Both the position numbers and the translations under genes were made by a program. This document shows, piece by piece, positions 49,972-61,853 of a stretch of 64,000 bases of DNA. Positions within the stretch are counted from its first letter, which is position 1. Each line of letters starts with the position of its first letter. Origin of the DNA: Prevotella sp. (GTDB lineage Bacteria; Bacteroidota; Bacteroidia; Bacteroidales; Bacteroidaceae); NCBI GenBank assembly GCA_017428925.1, contig JAFRPY010000046.1, positions 1 through 64,000 on the forward strand. Reading direction: 5' to 3'. The notes under the pieces were generated by a model. It was not told the DNA's origin and searched no databases. It saw only the letters and a list, made by a program, of their open reading frames with translations.

Positions 49972-51570
49972 ATGAAAAGTAATTATGCATTACGCATTAA
50001 GAATTATGCATTATTAAAGTTTCTGGCAGTAGCCATATTACTTTTATCATCGTGTGTGAATCATCCCGATGTGCCTTCTTCATTCAAGGAGGCCAAGTGT
50101 CTGCCTGCCATCTTCCCTGATTATTGCGATGTCACCGTGCCGTGCAACATTGCGCCTCTCAATTTTATGCTTCCTGCTGACCAGTATGAAGCGTGTGTGG
50201 CACGTATCACCACTCCCGACGGCCAGCAGCAGACCTATGGCAGCGGTGTGAAGGTGCAGATACCCGAGCAGGAATGGCATGCCATGCTCGATGCCTCGAA
50301 GGGTAGGAGCATCAAGGTAGAGGTGTGGGGAAAGAGGAAAGAGGAAAGAGGAGAGAGAAGAGAGGAAAGAGGAGAGAGGAGAGAGGAGAGTGGAGAGGGG
50401 AAAGAGGAGAGAGAATGGCTGAAGTTCACTCCATTTGAGATATATGTAGCCAAGGAGCCTATAGATGAGTACCTTTCGTATCGCCTCATCGAACCGTCGT
50501 ATGTTGCATGGACCTTCATGGAGATAGCCCAACGCAACCTTACTACATTCGATGAATCGCAGATATTCAATAACGAAATTACCATGAACGACAGGGCAAA
50601 AGGCCAGTGCATCAACTGCCACAGCTATCAGAACTACAAGACCGACAATATGCTCTTTCACGTGCGTCTCTCTAATGCAGGTACTGTTATTGTAAACGAT
50701 GGCAAGGTCTCAAAAGTCAATATGAAGCGCGACTATACCATCTCTGGCGGCGTCTATCCCTCATGGCATCCCACAGCCAAGCTGGTTGCTTTCTCCACCA
50801 ACAAGACACGGCAGGCTTTCCATACGGCAAATCCCAACAAGATTGAGGTCTACGACCTCGCGAGCGACATGATTCTCTACGATGTGGAGACAGATTCGGT
50901 AAGCATCGTCAGTAACGATTCCACGCTTTTAGAGGTTTATCCCACTTGGTCGCCCGACGGCAAATACCTCTATTATTGCAAGTCCGTGCCGCTTCCTGAA
51001 GAGATGCGCGACAAGGACATCCGCACCACCTATCCGAAAATACAATACAACCTCGTTCGACGTTCGTTCGACATGAAGACACACAACTTTGGTGAGGAGG
51101 AACTGGTGTATGATGCTGCATCATCCGACAAGAGTGTCACCCTTCCGCGCATCAGCCCCGACGGGCGCTATCTGCTCTTTGCACTGGGGCAGTATGGATG
51201 TTTCCATAGCCGCCACCATGATGCCGACATTGTCTGCATCCCAATGGACAAGTATTCTGGCACCGCCCTTACCGCGGAAACTTCTTCGCCTTTAGATCTC
51301 ACCCTCCTCAATAGTGATGGCTATTCCGACAGCTATCCATCATGGTCGAGCAATGGGCACTGGATTATGCTGGCCAGTCGTCGCGACGACGACAACTACA
51401 GTCGAGTATATTTTTCCTATTTCAACAACGGGAAAGTTGGCAAGGCTTTCCTCATGCCGCAGGAGGATCCTGAACAGCATATCAGCCTGTTGAAGAGCTA
51501 TAACCGTCCGGAGTTCATGGTTGAGCCGGTCAGTATCAGCGTTGAAGAGTTCAGCAGGGTGTTCGAATAG
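49972..51570 (+). CDS. Lipoprotein with CxxCH motif and PD40-type beta-propeller, copy 1
   Basis: A 532-residue protein from ATG 49972. The signal peptide n-region (MKSNYALRIKNYALLKF) is encoded by an interspersed ATTATGCATTA repeat; the lipobox is LLSSC. An N-terminal beta domain starts at LPAIFPDYCDVTVPCNIAPL. A homopurine-encoded insert (GKRKEERGERREERG and more, about 119-147) precedes CINCH (213-217), a c-type heme-binding motif. PD40/TolB-like propeller blades follow, with YPTWSPDGKYLYY, LPRISPDGRYLLFA and YPSWSSNGHWIMLASRRDDD. Heme attachment is not shown; the paired copy at 60264 conserves the CxxCH at the same distance from the start. Confidence 0.8.
   Translation: MKSNYALRIKNYALLKFLAVAILLLSSCVNHPDVPSSFKEAKCLPAIFPDYCDVTVPCNIAPLNFMLPADQYEACVARITTPDGQQQTYGSGVKVQIPEQEWHAMLDASKGRSIKVEVWGKRKEERGERREERGERREESGEGKEEREWLKFTPFEIYVAKEPIDEYLSYRLIEPSYVAWTFMEIAQRNLTTFDESQIFNNEITMNDRAKGQCINCHSYQNYKTDNMLFHVRLSNAGTVIVNDGKVSKVNMKRDYTISGGVYPSWHPTAKLVAFSTNKTRQAFHTANPNKIEVYDLASDMILYDVETDSVSIVSNDSTLLEVYPTWSPDGKYLYYCKSVPLPEEMRDKDIRTTYPKIQYNLVRRSFDMKTHNFGEEELVYDAASSDKSVTLPRISPDGRYLLFALGQYGCFHSRHHDADIVCIPMDKYSGTALTAETSSPLDLTLLNSDGYSDSYPSWSSNGHWIMLASRRDDDNYSRVYFSYFNNGKVGKAFLMPQEDPEQHISLLKSYNRPEFMVEPVSISVEEFSRVFE
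49976..50016. repeat. ATTATGCATTA interspersed repeat encoding a signal-peptide start
   Basis: AATTATGCATTACGCATTAA then GAATTATGCATTATTAAA, a two-part repeat with ATTATGCATTA twice. It supplies codons 2-16 of the CxxCH/PD40 lipoprotein. Confidence 0.75.
50326..50414. repeat. Homopurine tract within the CxxCH/PD40 gene
   Basis: About 88 bases of A and G (two T's near each end), made of GAGAGGAAAGAG-like units. It encodes the Lys/Arg/Glu/Gly-rich insert absent from the paralogue at 60264, which has only CMEKDGQ at the same place. Confidence 0.8.
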
Positions 51571-58758: not shown

Positions 58759-58790
58759 TTTGGCATATTCGGATAATTGTTGTATTTTTG
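58759..58790 (+). promoter_or_regulatory. Promoter of the second DUF6057-like gene
   Basis: TTTG (58759-58762), 20 bp, TATTTTTG (58783-58790). This rules out the earlier in-frame TTG (58777) as start. Confidence 0.7.
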
Positions 58791-58806
58791 CAACGTTTTG
58801 AAAAGT

Positions 58807-60267
58807 GTGATAGTGAAATATTGGAAATGCGGGCTGTCGGTGCTTTTTGGCATCGGCGTATTCGTATTTTGGTATTTCTTCTATCCTCATGCGCTGAACT
58901 ACCAGGAGCAATATCAACTATTCCTTTGGACAGGGGATTACTTTCTGGAACGGGTAAGCGTGCCGGGGGGATTGGCTGACTGGCTCGGGGAATTCATCGT
59001 GCAGTTCTATTATGTGGAGTGGTTAGGGGCATTGCTGTTGGCAGTGCTGTTCATGGTGCTCCAACGGCTGTCGGTGGTTCCTCGTTTTTACCTGCTTTCG
59101 TTTGTCTCGCCGCTGCTGTTGCTCTGGCTGATGGGCGATCCCAGTGTGCTGTTGTCGCTGCCAGTGGCCGTCATTCTCTGCTTGCTGGCTTTCAGACTCC
59201 TGAAGGCTGTTCATGCAGCCTTCGACCTGCTGATTGTGCCCGTGCTTTACTGGCTGGTGGGGCCTGTGGCATGGTTGTATGTCGTGCTGCGTGTCATCCG
59301 TTGGGGTTGGAAACATCTGTGGTCGGCGGGCTGGTTGGTGGCTGTGCAACTGACGGCATACGCCTTCCTGCTGCCGCAGTGGCCGCTCCAGACGGTAATG
59401 GCAGGAAACGGGTATTACCGCATTCCCCTGCACTGGCCGAGCCTAAGCGGCTACGACCGTGAGATGTACGAACTGATTCGCGAGGATTATCTGGTGCGTT
59501 ATGAGCGTTGGGATGAGATTGTGAAGCGGGCACAGGAGTATCAAGTGCATACGCCTTTCAGTTCGGTCTGCGTTAACCTGGCCCTGTCCCAACAGCGGCA
59601 ATTGGCAGAACGGATGTTCGAATTCTATCAGAGCGGTGAGGATGCACTGATCATGCCCCGCATACGCGACCTGACCTCCATGTTGCCCTCTGCCGAGGCT
59701 TTCTGGCGATTAGGCATGGTAAACTCGGCCCAGCGCTATATGTTCGACACGCAAGAGTCTATTCTGAATGCCCGCAAGAGCGGACGTTGCACCAAGCGCA
59801 TTGCTGAGTGCATGATGGTGAACGGTCATTATCAGACCGCCCGTAAACAAACCAGTCTGCTGAAGAAGAGCCTTTTTTACCGCACGTGGGCCAAGGAGGC
59901 AGAGACAATGATGAAAGACGAGGCACAGATGAATGCCCACCCGGTATATGGGAAACTGAGAAAACTGAGATACAAGGAGGATTTCCTCTACAGTTACGAA
60001 GAGATTGACAAGATGTTCGGACTGCTGTTCATGAACAACAAGGAGAACCGCATGGCCCTCGACTACTTTATGGCCCAGATGCTGCTGAAGGGTGATATGC
60101 AGGGCGTCATGCAATATATGCCGATGGTGCAGCAGTATGGCGGCTATCGTTATATGCCCGTGGGCTATCAGGATGTAGTGAAATGCATCCAGCAGAAGGG
60201 AAATGTTCCCGGTTCGCCCTTTGCGGCATACGCTAAACGGATGATGCAGAAAGGAGGTGGGGAATGA
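58807..60267 (+). CDS. DUF6057-like multi-pass membrane protein, copy 2
   Basis: About 486 residues. No ATG is available after the promoter; GTG 58807 or GTG 58813 is the likely start. The N-terminal half has six to eight membrane helices (GLSVLFGIGVFVFWYFFYP and others). It shares with the third copy the block YQEQYQLFLWTGDYFLERVS, PGGLADWLGEFIVQFYY and VLQRL. The C-terminal half is TPR-like (MVNSAQRYMFDTQESILNARK, CTKRIAECMMVNGHYQTARK). It overlaps the next gene by four bases (ATGA), so the pair is coupled. Function unknown. Confidence 0.75.
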   Translation: MIVKYWKCGLSVLFGIGVFVFWYFFYPHALNYQEQYQLFLWTGDYFLERVSVPGGLADWLGEFIVQFYYVEWLGALLLAVLFMVLQRLSVVPRFYLLSFVSPLLLLWLMGDPSVLLSLPVAVILCLLAFRLLKAVHAAFDLLIVPVLYWLVGPVAWLYVVLRVIRWGWKHLWSAGWLVAVQLTAYAFLLPQWPLQTVMAGNGYYRIPLHWPSLSGYDREMYELIREDYLVRYERWDEIVKRAQEYQVHTPFSSVCVNLALSQQRQLAERMFEFYQSGEDALIMPRIRDLTSMLPSAEAFWRLGMVNSAQRYMFDTQESILNARKSGRCTKRIAECMMVNGHYQTARKQTSLLKKSLFYRTWAKEAETMMKDEAQMNAHPVYGKLRKLRYKEDFLYSYEEIDKMFGLLFMNNKENRMALDYFMAQMLLKGDMQGVMQYMPMVQQYGGYRYMPVGYQDVVKCIQQKGNVPGSPFAAYAKRMMQKGGGE

Positions 60268-61853
60268 AAAAGATAAGGAGACCAATGCTAGCCAGCAGAC
60301 CCACCCCAGCCCTCCCTATGAGGGAGGGAGTGATATCCTTTTTTAGGTCATTGTTATCGTCTTCGTTATCGTCTTCGTTATCGTCTTCGTTATCGTTATC
60401 GTTAGCGTTAACGTTAACGTTGTTATTGTCTTGTTCGTCAATGCCAGAGAACGTGAAGACGGTGGACACGCTGCCTGCGATTTATCCTGATTATATCGGC
60501 GTGACGATTCCTGAGGGCATTGCACCGCTGAATTTCAATGCGCTCGGCGAGGGCGTCGACTGCATGGATGTGGTGGTGAAGGGCTCAAAGGGCGGCGAGC
60601 TGCATGCCAACGGCGAATGGGCTGACTTTGATGTGGACGACTGGCATCAGCTGACCGCACAGAACCGTGGCGGAACGCTCACTTTTACGGTCTGCATGGA
60701 AAAGGACGGGCAGTGGACGCAATACAAGGGCTTCACGGTGACGGTGAGCAGCGATGCCCTCAGCGACTACGGACTGACCTATCGCCGCATCAAGCCCGGC
60801 TACGAGGTAGGCGGCGACATCGGTATCTATCAACGTGACATCCATAGCTTCGAAGAGACGGCCATACTGACGGAGCATATCCTGCCGGGCCGCTGTTTCA
60901 ACTGCCACACGCCCAACCACAACAATCCCAGTCTGTTCACACTGCAGATTCGCGGTGAGGGTGGCGGCACGCTGGTTCAGCGCAATGGGAAACAGACGTG
61001 GTATAACACCAAGACCGATTCTACGAAGGCGGCTGGTTCATACGCCTATTGGCACCCCGAAGGCCGCTATTGCGCCTATTCGGCCAATTCCGTCCATCAG
61101 GCATTCTTTGTGGGTAGCGGCCAGCGCATTGAGGTGTACCATCAGTTCAGTACGGTTGAAGTGCTTGACACGAAGACCAACGAACTGATTCTCTCCCCAC
61201 AGATACAGAATGGCGACCTGGCCATCCACCCCGCATTCTCGGCTGATGGACGGACGCTCTATTACAGTTCGTCGAAACCCTGTCGCGTGCCGGCAGAATT
61301 TGAACAGGTGAAATGCAGCCTGTGTGCCATTTCCTTCGATGCTGCCACGGGCACTTTTGGAGAACGTGTGGACACACTGCTCAACGGTCCGGCAACTGAC
61401 AAGAGTTATACGCTGGTTCGTCCTTCGTATGATGGCCGTTGGCTGATGTACACGGTGAGCAGCCGCAGCAATTTCCCAATAGCCCAAAACGATGCCGACC
61501 TTTGGCTGATGGATCTGAAGACCGGTGAGCACCGCGAACTGAGCGAGGTGAACAGCCGTCAGTCGGAGAGTTATCATAACTGGAGCCGCAACAGTCGCTG
61601 GTTTGTATTCAGCAGCAAGCGCGAAGACGGCATGTACACCAAGTTGTATATTGCCCATATCGACGGTAACGGCAAGGTTTCGAAGCCATTCCTGTTGCCG
61701 CAGCGTTATCCGCGAAAATATTATGGTGAACTGATGGATGCCTATAATGTTCCGGAATTCACCTCTGAAAAGGTGGTGTTCGACGCTCACGAGGCCTATC
61801 GGCAGGTGTTCCGCGACGAGCGGGTTGGGGTTAAAGTGAAGAGTGAAGAATGA
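60264..61853 (+). CDS. Lipoprotein with CxxCH motif and PD40-type beta-propeller, copy 2
   Basis: A 529-residue paralogue of the protein at 49972. Its start overlaps the DUF6057-like stop. The first 55 residues come from repeat DNA: RPTPALPMREG from the GC-rich palindrome, then a Ser/Leu run from a 12-bp tandem repeat that forms the hydrophobic core before the lipobox LLSC. LPAIYPDYIGVTIPEGIAPL follows. CFNCH (211-215) aligns with CINCH of copy 1, and the propeller has IHPAFSADGRTLYYSSS and NWSRNSRWFVFSSKREDG. The C-terminus (KVKSEE) is also coded by a repeat tract that overlaps the next start. Confidence 0.8.
   Translation: MKKIRRPMLASRPTPALPMREGVISFFRSLLSSSLSSSLSSSLSLSLALTLTLLLSCSSMPENVKTVDTLPAIYPDYIGVTIPEGIAPLNFNALGEGVDCMDVVVKGSKGGELHANGEWADFDVDDWHQLTAQNRGGTLTFTVCMEKDGQWTQYKGFTVTVSSDALSDYGLTYRRIKPGYEVGGDIGIYQRDIHSFEETAILTEHILPGRCFNCHTPNHNNPSLFTLQIRGEGGGTLVQRNGKQTWYNTKTDSTKAAGSYAYWHPEGRYCAYSANSVHQAFFVGSGQRIEVYHQFSTVEVLDTKTNELILSPQIQNGDLAIHPAFSADGRTLYYSSSKPCRVPAEFEQVKCSLCAISFDAATGTFGERVDTLLNGPATDKSYTLVRPSYDGRWLMYTVSSRSNFPIAQNDADLWLMDLKTGEHRELSEVNSRQSESYHNWSRNSRWFVFSSKREDGMYTKLYIAHIDGNGKVSKPFLLPQRYPRKYYGELMDAYNVPEFTSEKVVFDAHEAYRQVFRDERVGVKVKSEE
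60302..60329. repeat. GC-rich interspersed palindrome, second copy
   Basis: CCCTCCCT-ATG-AGGGAGGG (60310-60328), next to CACCCCAG. Same family as 16227-16245 in murF. Here it encodes part of a signal-peptide n-region. Confidence 0.8.
60352..60424. repeat. 12-bp tandem repeat encoding the signal-peptide core
   Basis: About six units of CGTTATCGTCTT and its CGTTAT/CGTTAA variants. Read as alternating TCG/TCT and TTA codons they give SLSSSLSSSLSLSLALTLT, which supplies the hydrophobic region of the lipoprotein signal. Confidence 0.85.

Follow-up and report, generated by a model that had tools for sequence, protein, structure and literature searches.

Signal sequence of a Prevotella PD40 lipoprotein composed of a palindromic element and a short-period array

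The window, a stretch of 64,000 nucleotides from Prevotella sp., comes from a draft assembly that totals 3.56 Mb over 122 contigs, with 85% completeness and 5% contamination. Near its 3' end lies a gene for a PD40 (WD40-like beta-propeller) lipoprotein, hereafter copy 2, whose ATG (60264) overlaps the stop codon of a DUF6057 membrane protein gene (ATGA). The locus also encodes a TonB-dependent receptor and a SusD protein. The nearest named relatives of copy 2 were found in uncultured Prevotellaceae/Prevotella assemblies, L206 (90% amino-acid identity) and L207 (88%). The gene has a paralogue in the window (copy 1) and another downstream, just beyond it (copy 3). The mature part of copy 1 contains a GGAGAGA heptamer array (12 copies, 50329-50413) read as charged RREERGERREERGE, a use of repeats like that of the signals described below, but in a hydrophilic loop. 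A CxxCH motif, which we take to be of haem type, was observed in PD40 lipoproteins (CFNCH, CINCH, CVNCH), both at ~60890-60910 in the window and in copies 1 and 3; the lipoproteins bearing it adjoin DUF6057 and SusC/SusD-type genes.

Table 1 Features of the copy-2 locus and of the copy-1 paralogue in the window.
Feature	Position	Strand	Basis
DUF6057 membrane protein, 5' neighbour of copy 2	58777..60267	+	ORF; PF19529 E 2.8e-118
Shine-Dalgarno-like AAAGGAGG ahead of the copy-2 ATG	60250..60257	+	sequence; similar site in 46/80 orthologues
PD40 lipoprotein copy 2, 529 aa	60264..61853	+	ORF; PF07676 E 2e-07
Palindromic element, 34 bp, GC-rich, read RPTPALPMREG (n-region)	60297..60330	+	pattern, fold, dispersed copies
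CGTTNN array, 6-bp period, containing 12-bp CGTTATCGTCTT copies	60353..60421	+	TRF, codon shuffles
Strongly hydrophobic part of the signal (LSLSLALTLTLLLS)	60390..60431	+	hydropathy
Lipobox Cys codon (LLSC)	60432..60434	+	sequence
PD40 lipoprotein paralogue copy 1, n-region NYALRIKNYAL	49972..51570	+	ORF, domain match
ATTATGC heptamer array, copy-1 n-region	49982..50014	+	TRF, 80% match

Bacterial lipoproteins that follow the Sec and signal peptidase II route carry a K/R n-region, a hydrophobic stretch and a lipobox, e.g. [LVI][ASTVI][GAS]C. Copy 2 has all three in its sequence (KKIRR, LSLALTLTLLL and LLSC): the N-terminus reads MKKIRRPMLASRPTPALPMREGVISFFRSLLSSSLSSSLSSSLSLSLALTLTLLLS and then CSS, giving a signal of 56 codons with Cys57 as the lipobox residue. 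As the initial annotation had proposed, this signal is made from two DNA repeats, of which the array leads to the lipobox LLSC, and the copy-1 paralogue indeed uses a different repeat, a heptamer array, in its n-region. The palindrome is predicted to form a hairpin with an ATG in its loop (200-base stretch folded). The array is translated as LSSS and then LSLALTLT; TRF reported 60353-60408 with a period of 12 (4.7 copies, 93% match, score 91) and the whole array with a period of 6 (77% match). The repeat score of the last 72 signal bases was higher than in all 300 codon shuffles. The description of the first 55 codons as repeat stands as far as both elements are present, but codons 1-11 and 23-30 lie outside them. 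The 12-bp units with their TTA/TCG codons were thought to create the hydrophobic core, which did not hold: they encode SSSL, which is weakly hydrophobic (best 11-residue Kyte-Doolittle mean 0.45), and the core LSLALTLTLLL (2.38) is encoded by the 6-bp end of the array. The exact 12-bp copies look like products of slippage.

The array very likely lies inside the translated signal peptide, because the only start-type codons in frame 3' of it are TTGs 4 and 2 codons before the Cys and a Shine-Dalgarno-like site stands ahead of the ATG; translation beginning after the array, an outcome considered in the initial annotation, is thus unlikely. A start at the internal ATG of the palindrome would still keep the array within the signal. 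The rule behind the count of such sites among orthologues (Table 1) also had a part in selecting the ATG; in many orthologues the upstream sequence has a GAAAGGAGG-like site. An assembly artefact or a mis-called start, by which the array would be absent from the translated protein, could be suspected in a draft this fragmented and incomplete, but the same elements occupy the same place in two other assemblies (L206 and L207) and no usable start lies 3' of the array, and we regard this explanation as highly improbable.

Both elements occupy this site in signals of 56 codons in the window, 44 in L207 and 32 in L206, a comparison between species with one genome for each. The L207 signal is identical to that of the window at 130/132 aligned bases, with one 36-bp gap in the array, and the L206 signal at 86/96, the array being 48 bp and the n-region 24 bp shorter. 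The in-frame change in array length that had been anticipated is therefore seen between species; all length differences among the three are multiples of 3, and the frame switching that marks a contingency locus was not observed among them. Both elements are also present in copy 3 of each of the three species, and in the six genes (copies 2 and 3) the stretch between the n-region and the Cys measures 28, 10, 12, 13, 16 and 19 codons. Translation runs through the first half of the palindrome in a different frame in copy 3 of L207 (THPNPPYREG), and the n-region sequence is therefore little constrained. The near-identity of the window and L207 signals (130/132, against 84-85% in the flanks) raised the idea that species recently exchanged the signal, but it is no more than suggestive, since other patches nearby also reach 96-98%.

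Such lengths, six in six genes and differing in frame between sister species and paralogues, are what would be expected if array length were a selected, mutable rheostat for the amount or sorting of exported lipoprotein. However, the most variable units are the weakly hydrophobic ones, and across the four signal lengths measured the 11-residue core stays hydrophobic (1.72-2.38). Many orthologues, moreover, have short signals without an evident repeat, and tuning of export seems to us unlikely.

The comparison with relatives used the best 80 of 128 from a named genome collection; a homologue was present in 89/150 sampled genomes of the same genus. Several relatives have signals built from other repeats, including CTAGT 9-mers in L209, L213 and L261 (e.g. 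LVTLVPLVLLVQL), TAGG 9-mers in L211, L215, L255 and L266, CTCTGTG units in L214, L222, L223 and L229 (SLCLCISV), heptamers in L212, L219, L220, L224 and L245, and, among orthologous Prevotellaceae signals, CTATAG 9-mers in G056. L219 belongs to Xylanibacter ruminicola, a cultured relative. One inverted repeat supplies both parts of the signal in L214 and L222: its arms, 26 and 25 nt long, 88% complementary and spaced by 23 nt, encode the n-region (HRDTEVQ, HRDTEIQ) and the h-region (SLCLCIS). In L229 the arms are 16-17 nt. Beyond what the initial annotation described, the repeats are dispersed, lineage-specific and swapped for others in relatives. L214 and L221 have near-identical mature parts (95.8% identity past the first 120 mature bases, 84% within those, 90.6% upstream) despite signals unrelated in sequence.

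Repetitiveness of the signals was evaluated by codon shuffling (300 shuffles per signal, 100 per control) on 79 of 81 rows. L232, in which no ATG was found, and L263, which was short and likewise without one, were omitted, whereas nine rows without a lipobox match were included with an estimated Cys position. At p<=0.01 the signals gave 28/79, compared with 4/473 mature segments and 6/276 upstream hydrophobic segments, the latter taken from long upstream reading frames, chiefly that of the DUF6057 gene; the other 51/79 signals were above this threshold. At p<=0.05 the counts were 36/79, 16/473 and 23/276, a slight excess in the upstream hydrophobic segments too. Some upstream hydrophobic segments share the repeat style of the neighbouring signal (L146:4740-4789; DUF6057 of L255 and L209, LVVLDKLEKLGNLVILG; VVGKVGLVGKVGLLG). 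Separately, no lipobox Cys was found in L236, L228 and L226, whose N-terminus resembles a membrane anchor, followed in L236 and L228 by an HSSLFT heptamer sequence.

With classes assigned by eye and a quick tree of the mature proteins, eight repeat classes plus "none" require at least 18 changes; the labelled rows alone require 10 class changes, where the minimum possible is 7, and the class of the window forms a single clade of three. Within one genome, paralogues often have a class in common: copies 2, 3 and 4 of G094 (LV 9-mer), copies 2 and 3 of G035 and of G081 (LVG class), and copies 2 and 3 of G020 (SLCLC). The class of copies 2 and 3 is missing from copy 4 in G035, G081 and G020, and copies 2 and 3 of G149 belong to different classes. 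The identity of copies 2 and 3, compared with G020 left out, is 88% in the first 120 mature bases versus 65% later in G035, and 92.5% versus 63% in G081; near the N-terminal end it is 77% versus 66% over the whole in the genome of the window, and 73-76% versus 64% in G094. Gene conversion between copies 2 and 3 would fit these profiles in G035 and G081, less so in the genome of the window and hardly in G094.

Both elements also occur away from PD40 genes. In stretches of the window's own genome, many of them picked around palindrome matches and with genes called as longest ORFs, 22 copies of the palindrome passed 7 mismatches, 11 of which lie in called genes (one, in L017, is a doubtful case in a likely spurious ORF and is still counted). 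N-terminal signals hold 7 of the 11, in both orientations: those of copy 2, copy 3, an S41 C-terminal-processing protease, GldN/PorN of type IX secretion, a GH2-family enzyme, another PD40 lipoprotein and a DUF5074 lipoprotein. Further copies lie in the N-terminal tail of a GyrB/ParE-type protein (L013:4991) and in frame within a DUF218 gene and a gene for a QueE-type radical SAM enzyme (L016:4039; the assignment scores below the NCBIfam cut-off). Palindrome copies were often seen as close inverted pairs ~70-170 bp apart, e.g. C71:39496/39618 and C16:52316/52415 (G000), an arrangement that resembles a MITE or a REP pair.

The 29 CGTTA arrays annotated in two sister species, in stretches chosen because they contain such arrays, comprise 17 intergenic arrays and 12 in called genes. 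Of the 12, three encode LSL in PD40 signals and eight encode N-D-N from the opposite strand, in linkers or C-terminal tails; one reads LSL at an ORF start, the true start being uncertain (L458). The CTAGT arrays of G094 likewise encode LVx in hydrophobic stretches, signals among them, or TSx in linkers, or fill intergenic DNA, and one array type is therefore used in differing frames according to place. That these repeats turn up in linkers and gaps too, places with no export to tune, is a further argument against the rheostat.

The repeats were counted genome-wide as matches on both strands, the signals themselves included. CGTTNN arrays numbered 18 in the genome of the window, 92 in L206 and 83 in L207, and 0-5 in the other ten genomes. 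Among 16 genomes, CTAGT arrays numbered 173 in G094, 207 and 183 in the L209 and L261 genomes, 76 in G035, 52 in G081, 51 and 43 in the L211 and L215 genomes, 22 in G149, 7 in the genome of the window and 0-1 in the remaining seven. For GTAGG there were 37 arrays in G081 and 12 in G035, both users in signals, and 0-4 in the other eight genomes; for CTATAG, 78 sites in the signal user G056, 22 in G035, 7 in G149, 1 in G081 and none in six. The contrast is weak for CTCTGTG (9 in G136 and 7 in G020, the signal users; 0-5 in eight others), for which reversed controls reach 6. For the five repeats counted, the genomes using each in signals hold most copies, with this one weak contrast. The palindrome was matched 32 times in the genome of the window, 17 in L206, 31 in L207, 5 in G009, 1 in G056 and not in eight others; by BLAST, ~45 of 48 rows in the genome of the window were palindromes, the other three being array or flank matches. 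Abundance does not equal class: G035 signals use GTAGG (12) despite 76 CTAGT arrays and 22 CTATAG sites, and G149 holds CTAGT (22) and uses a heptamer in its copy 2.

The arrays have a fixed core, a variable spacer and a constant 6- or 9-bp period, some have palindromic cores (ACTAGT, CTATAG), and many fill same-strand intergenic gaps. The likeness of neighbours at the free position was 0.32 in CGTTA arrays versus 0.37 from composition, and 0.43-0.50 in CTAGT arrays versus 0.28-0.50. Slippage as the sole origin of all arrays was rejected on these values, as CGTTA neighbours share the free position no more than composition predicts and CTAGT neighbours weakly. The same properties would suit arrays that act as DNA or RNA, for instance by binding a lineage-specific protein, the coding of signals being merely tolerated. 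Arrays and palindromes are, however, also found deep within genes, and the conservation of the core is partly a product of the search pattern, which fixed it; we think a role of this kind improbable, if somewhat less so than export tuning.

We also asked how repeat-rich lipoprotein signals are in general. Repeat scores >=14 were found in 5/54 signals of G000 (a set partly from stretches chosen around palindrome matches), 0/21 of G045, 2/24 of G035 and 1/20 of G094, compared with ~3/785 membrane segments, 0.2-0.4% of interior coding and 3-6% of intergenic sequence. Other lipoproteins near the orthologues gave 5/84 (four of them apparently the same orthologous gene, LPFYLFTF), versus 6/826, 6/1686 and, for intergenic DNA, 39/1592. 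Lipoprotein signals in general are therefore about as repeat-rich as intergenic DNA, which favours weak constraint. The PD40-family signals reach 13/79 (the rows are related) versus the intergenic 39/1592; this excess over intergenic DNA would be expected if array length were selected for export, and weak constraint alone may be insufficient to account for it.

Taken together, the signal of copy 2 is probably a composite of dispersed, lineage-specific repeats that settled at a permissive coding site, with selection keeping the hydrophobic frames. Two short dispersed repeat families, the palindrome for the n-region and the CGTTNN array for the h-region, would have come to occupy, in frame, the stretch that separates the start codon from the lipobox. 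This stretch would tolerate insertion, slippage and recombination because it would need only positive charge and then hydrophobicity. Selection would retain those orientations and frames that read as charged and then hydrophobic, and slippage and recombination would alter the length and spread repeats among paralogues. We infer that the copy-2 protein is exported and lipidated normally, that its signal changes length through slippage or recombination, and that weak constraint, not tuning, is the driver. A broader view, which we offer tentatively, is that each Prevotellaceae lineage might have its own process that makes or spreads fixed-core arrays with a period of 6 or 9 bp in permissive DNA, genes too; signals would then be disposable, swappable modules, renewed time and again from the lineage's repeats on an inherited protein body, and the frame would decide between a hydrophobic signal and a disordered linker.

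The literature searched yielded no description of signal peptides made from repeats in Prevotella or Bacteroidota. The closest known parallel is the in-frame palindromic elements (RPEs) of Rickettsia, like which the present palindrome appears to work, by analogy and not by membership. As outlined in the review that cites Ogata et al. 2000 (PMC10969869), RPEs are palindromic elements of ~150 bp, and they are likewise short, dispersed, in frame in genes for unrelated proteins and read through. The 32 palindrome matches here include in-frame copies in S41 protease, GldN, GH2, GyrB-type, DUF218 and QueE-type genes. The present element differs in its core of ~34 bp, its frequent position in N-terminal signals, its use in either orientation and its place beside a separate periodic array.

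The TAACTGA heptamers of Beggiatoaceae, Cyanobacteria and some Bacteroidetes are also short periodic repeats with a patchy distribution across lineages; the main text of that paper places them mainly in intergenic DNA, many just 5' of start codons, and uses the term "signal peptide" 0 times (PMC4679880), whereas the 6- and 9-bp arrays here keep the frame and extend into genes. The G-rich heptamer SSRs of Xanthomonas and Nostoc resemble the present repeats in having units of 6-9 nt genome-wide with a preference for gaps between aligned ORFs, but are described as under-represented in coding regions (PMC4692102), where coding use recurs in our case. The same paper cites Lin and Kussell for SSRs enriched near protein N-termini, a clustering near gene starts that is shared here; those SSRs are tied there to frameshift phase variation (PMC4692102), unlike the 6-, 9- and 12-bp periods here, which keep the frame, though heptamers also occur.

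These signals provide a natural case in which dispersed non-coding repeats have become a protein targeting signal, repeatedly and in one protein family, the same repeat being translated in different frames depending on where it landed. For gene callers and signal predictors, such repeat-built N-termini resemble low-complexity noise. The system makes testable how export signals originate, what minimal sequence they need and what spreads lineage-specific arrays.
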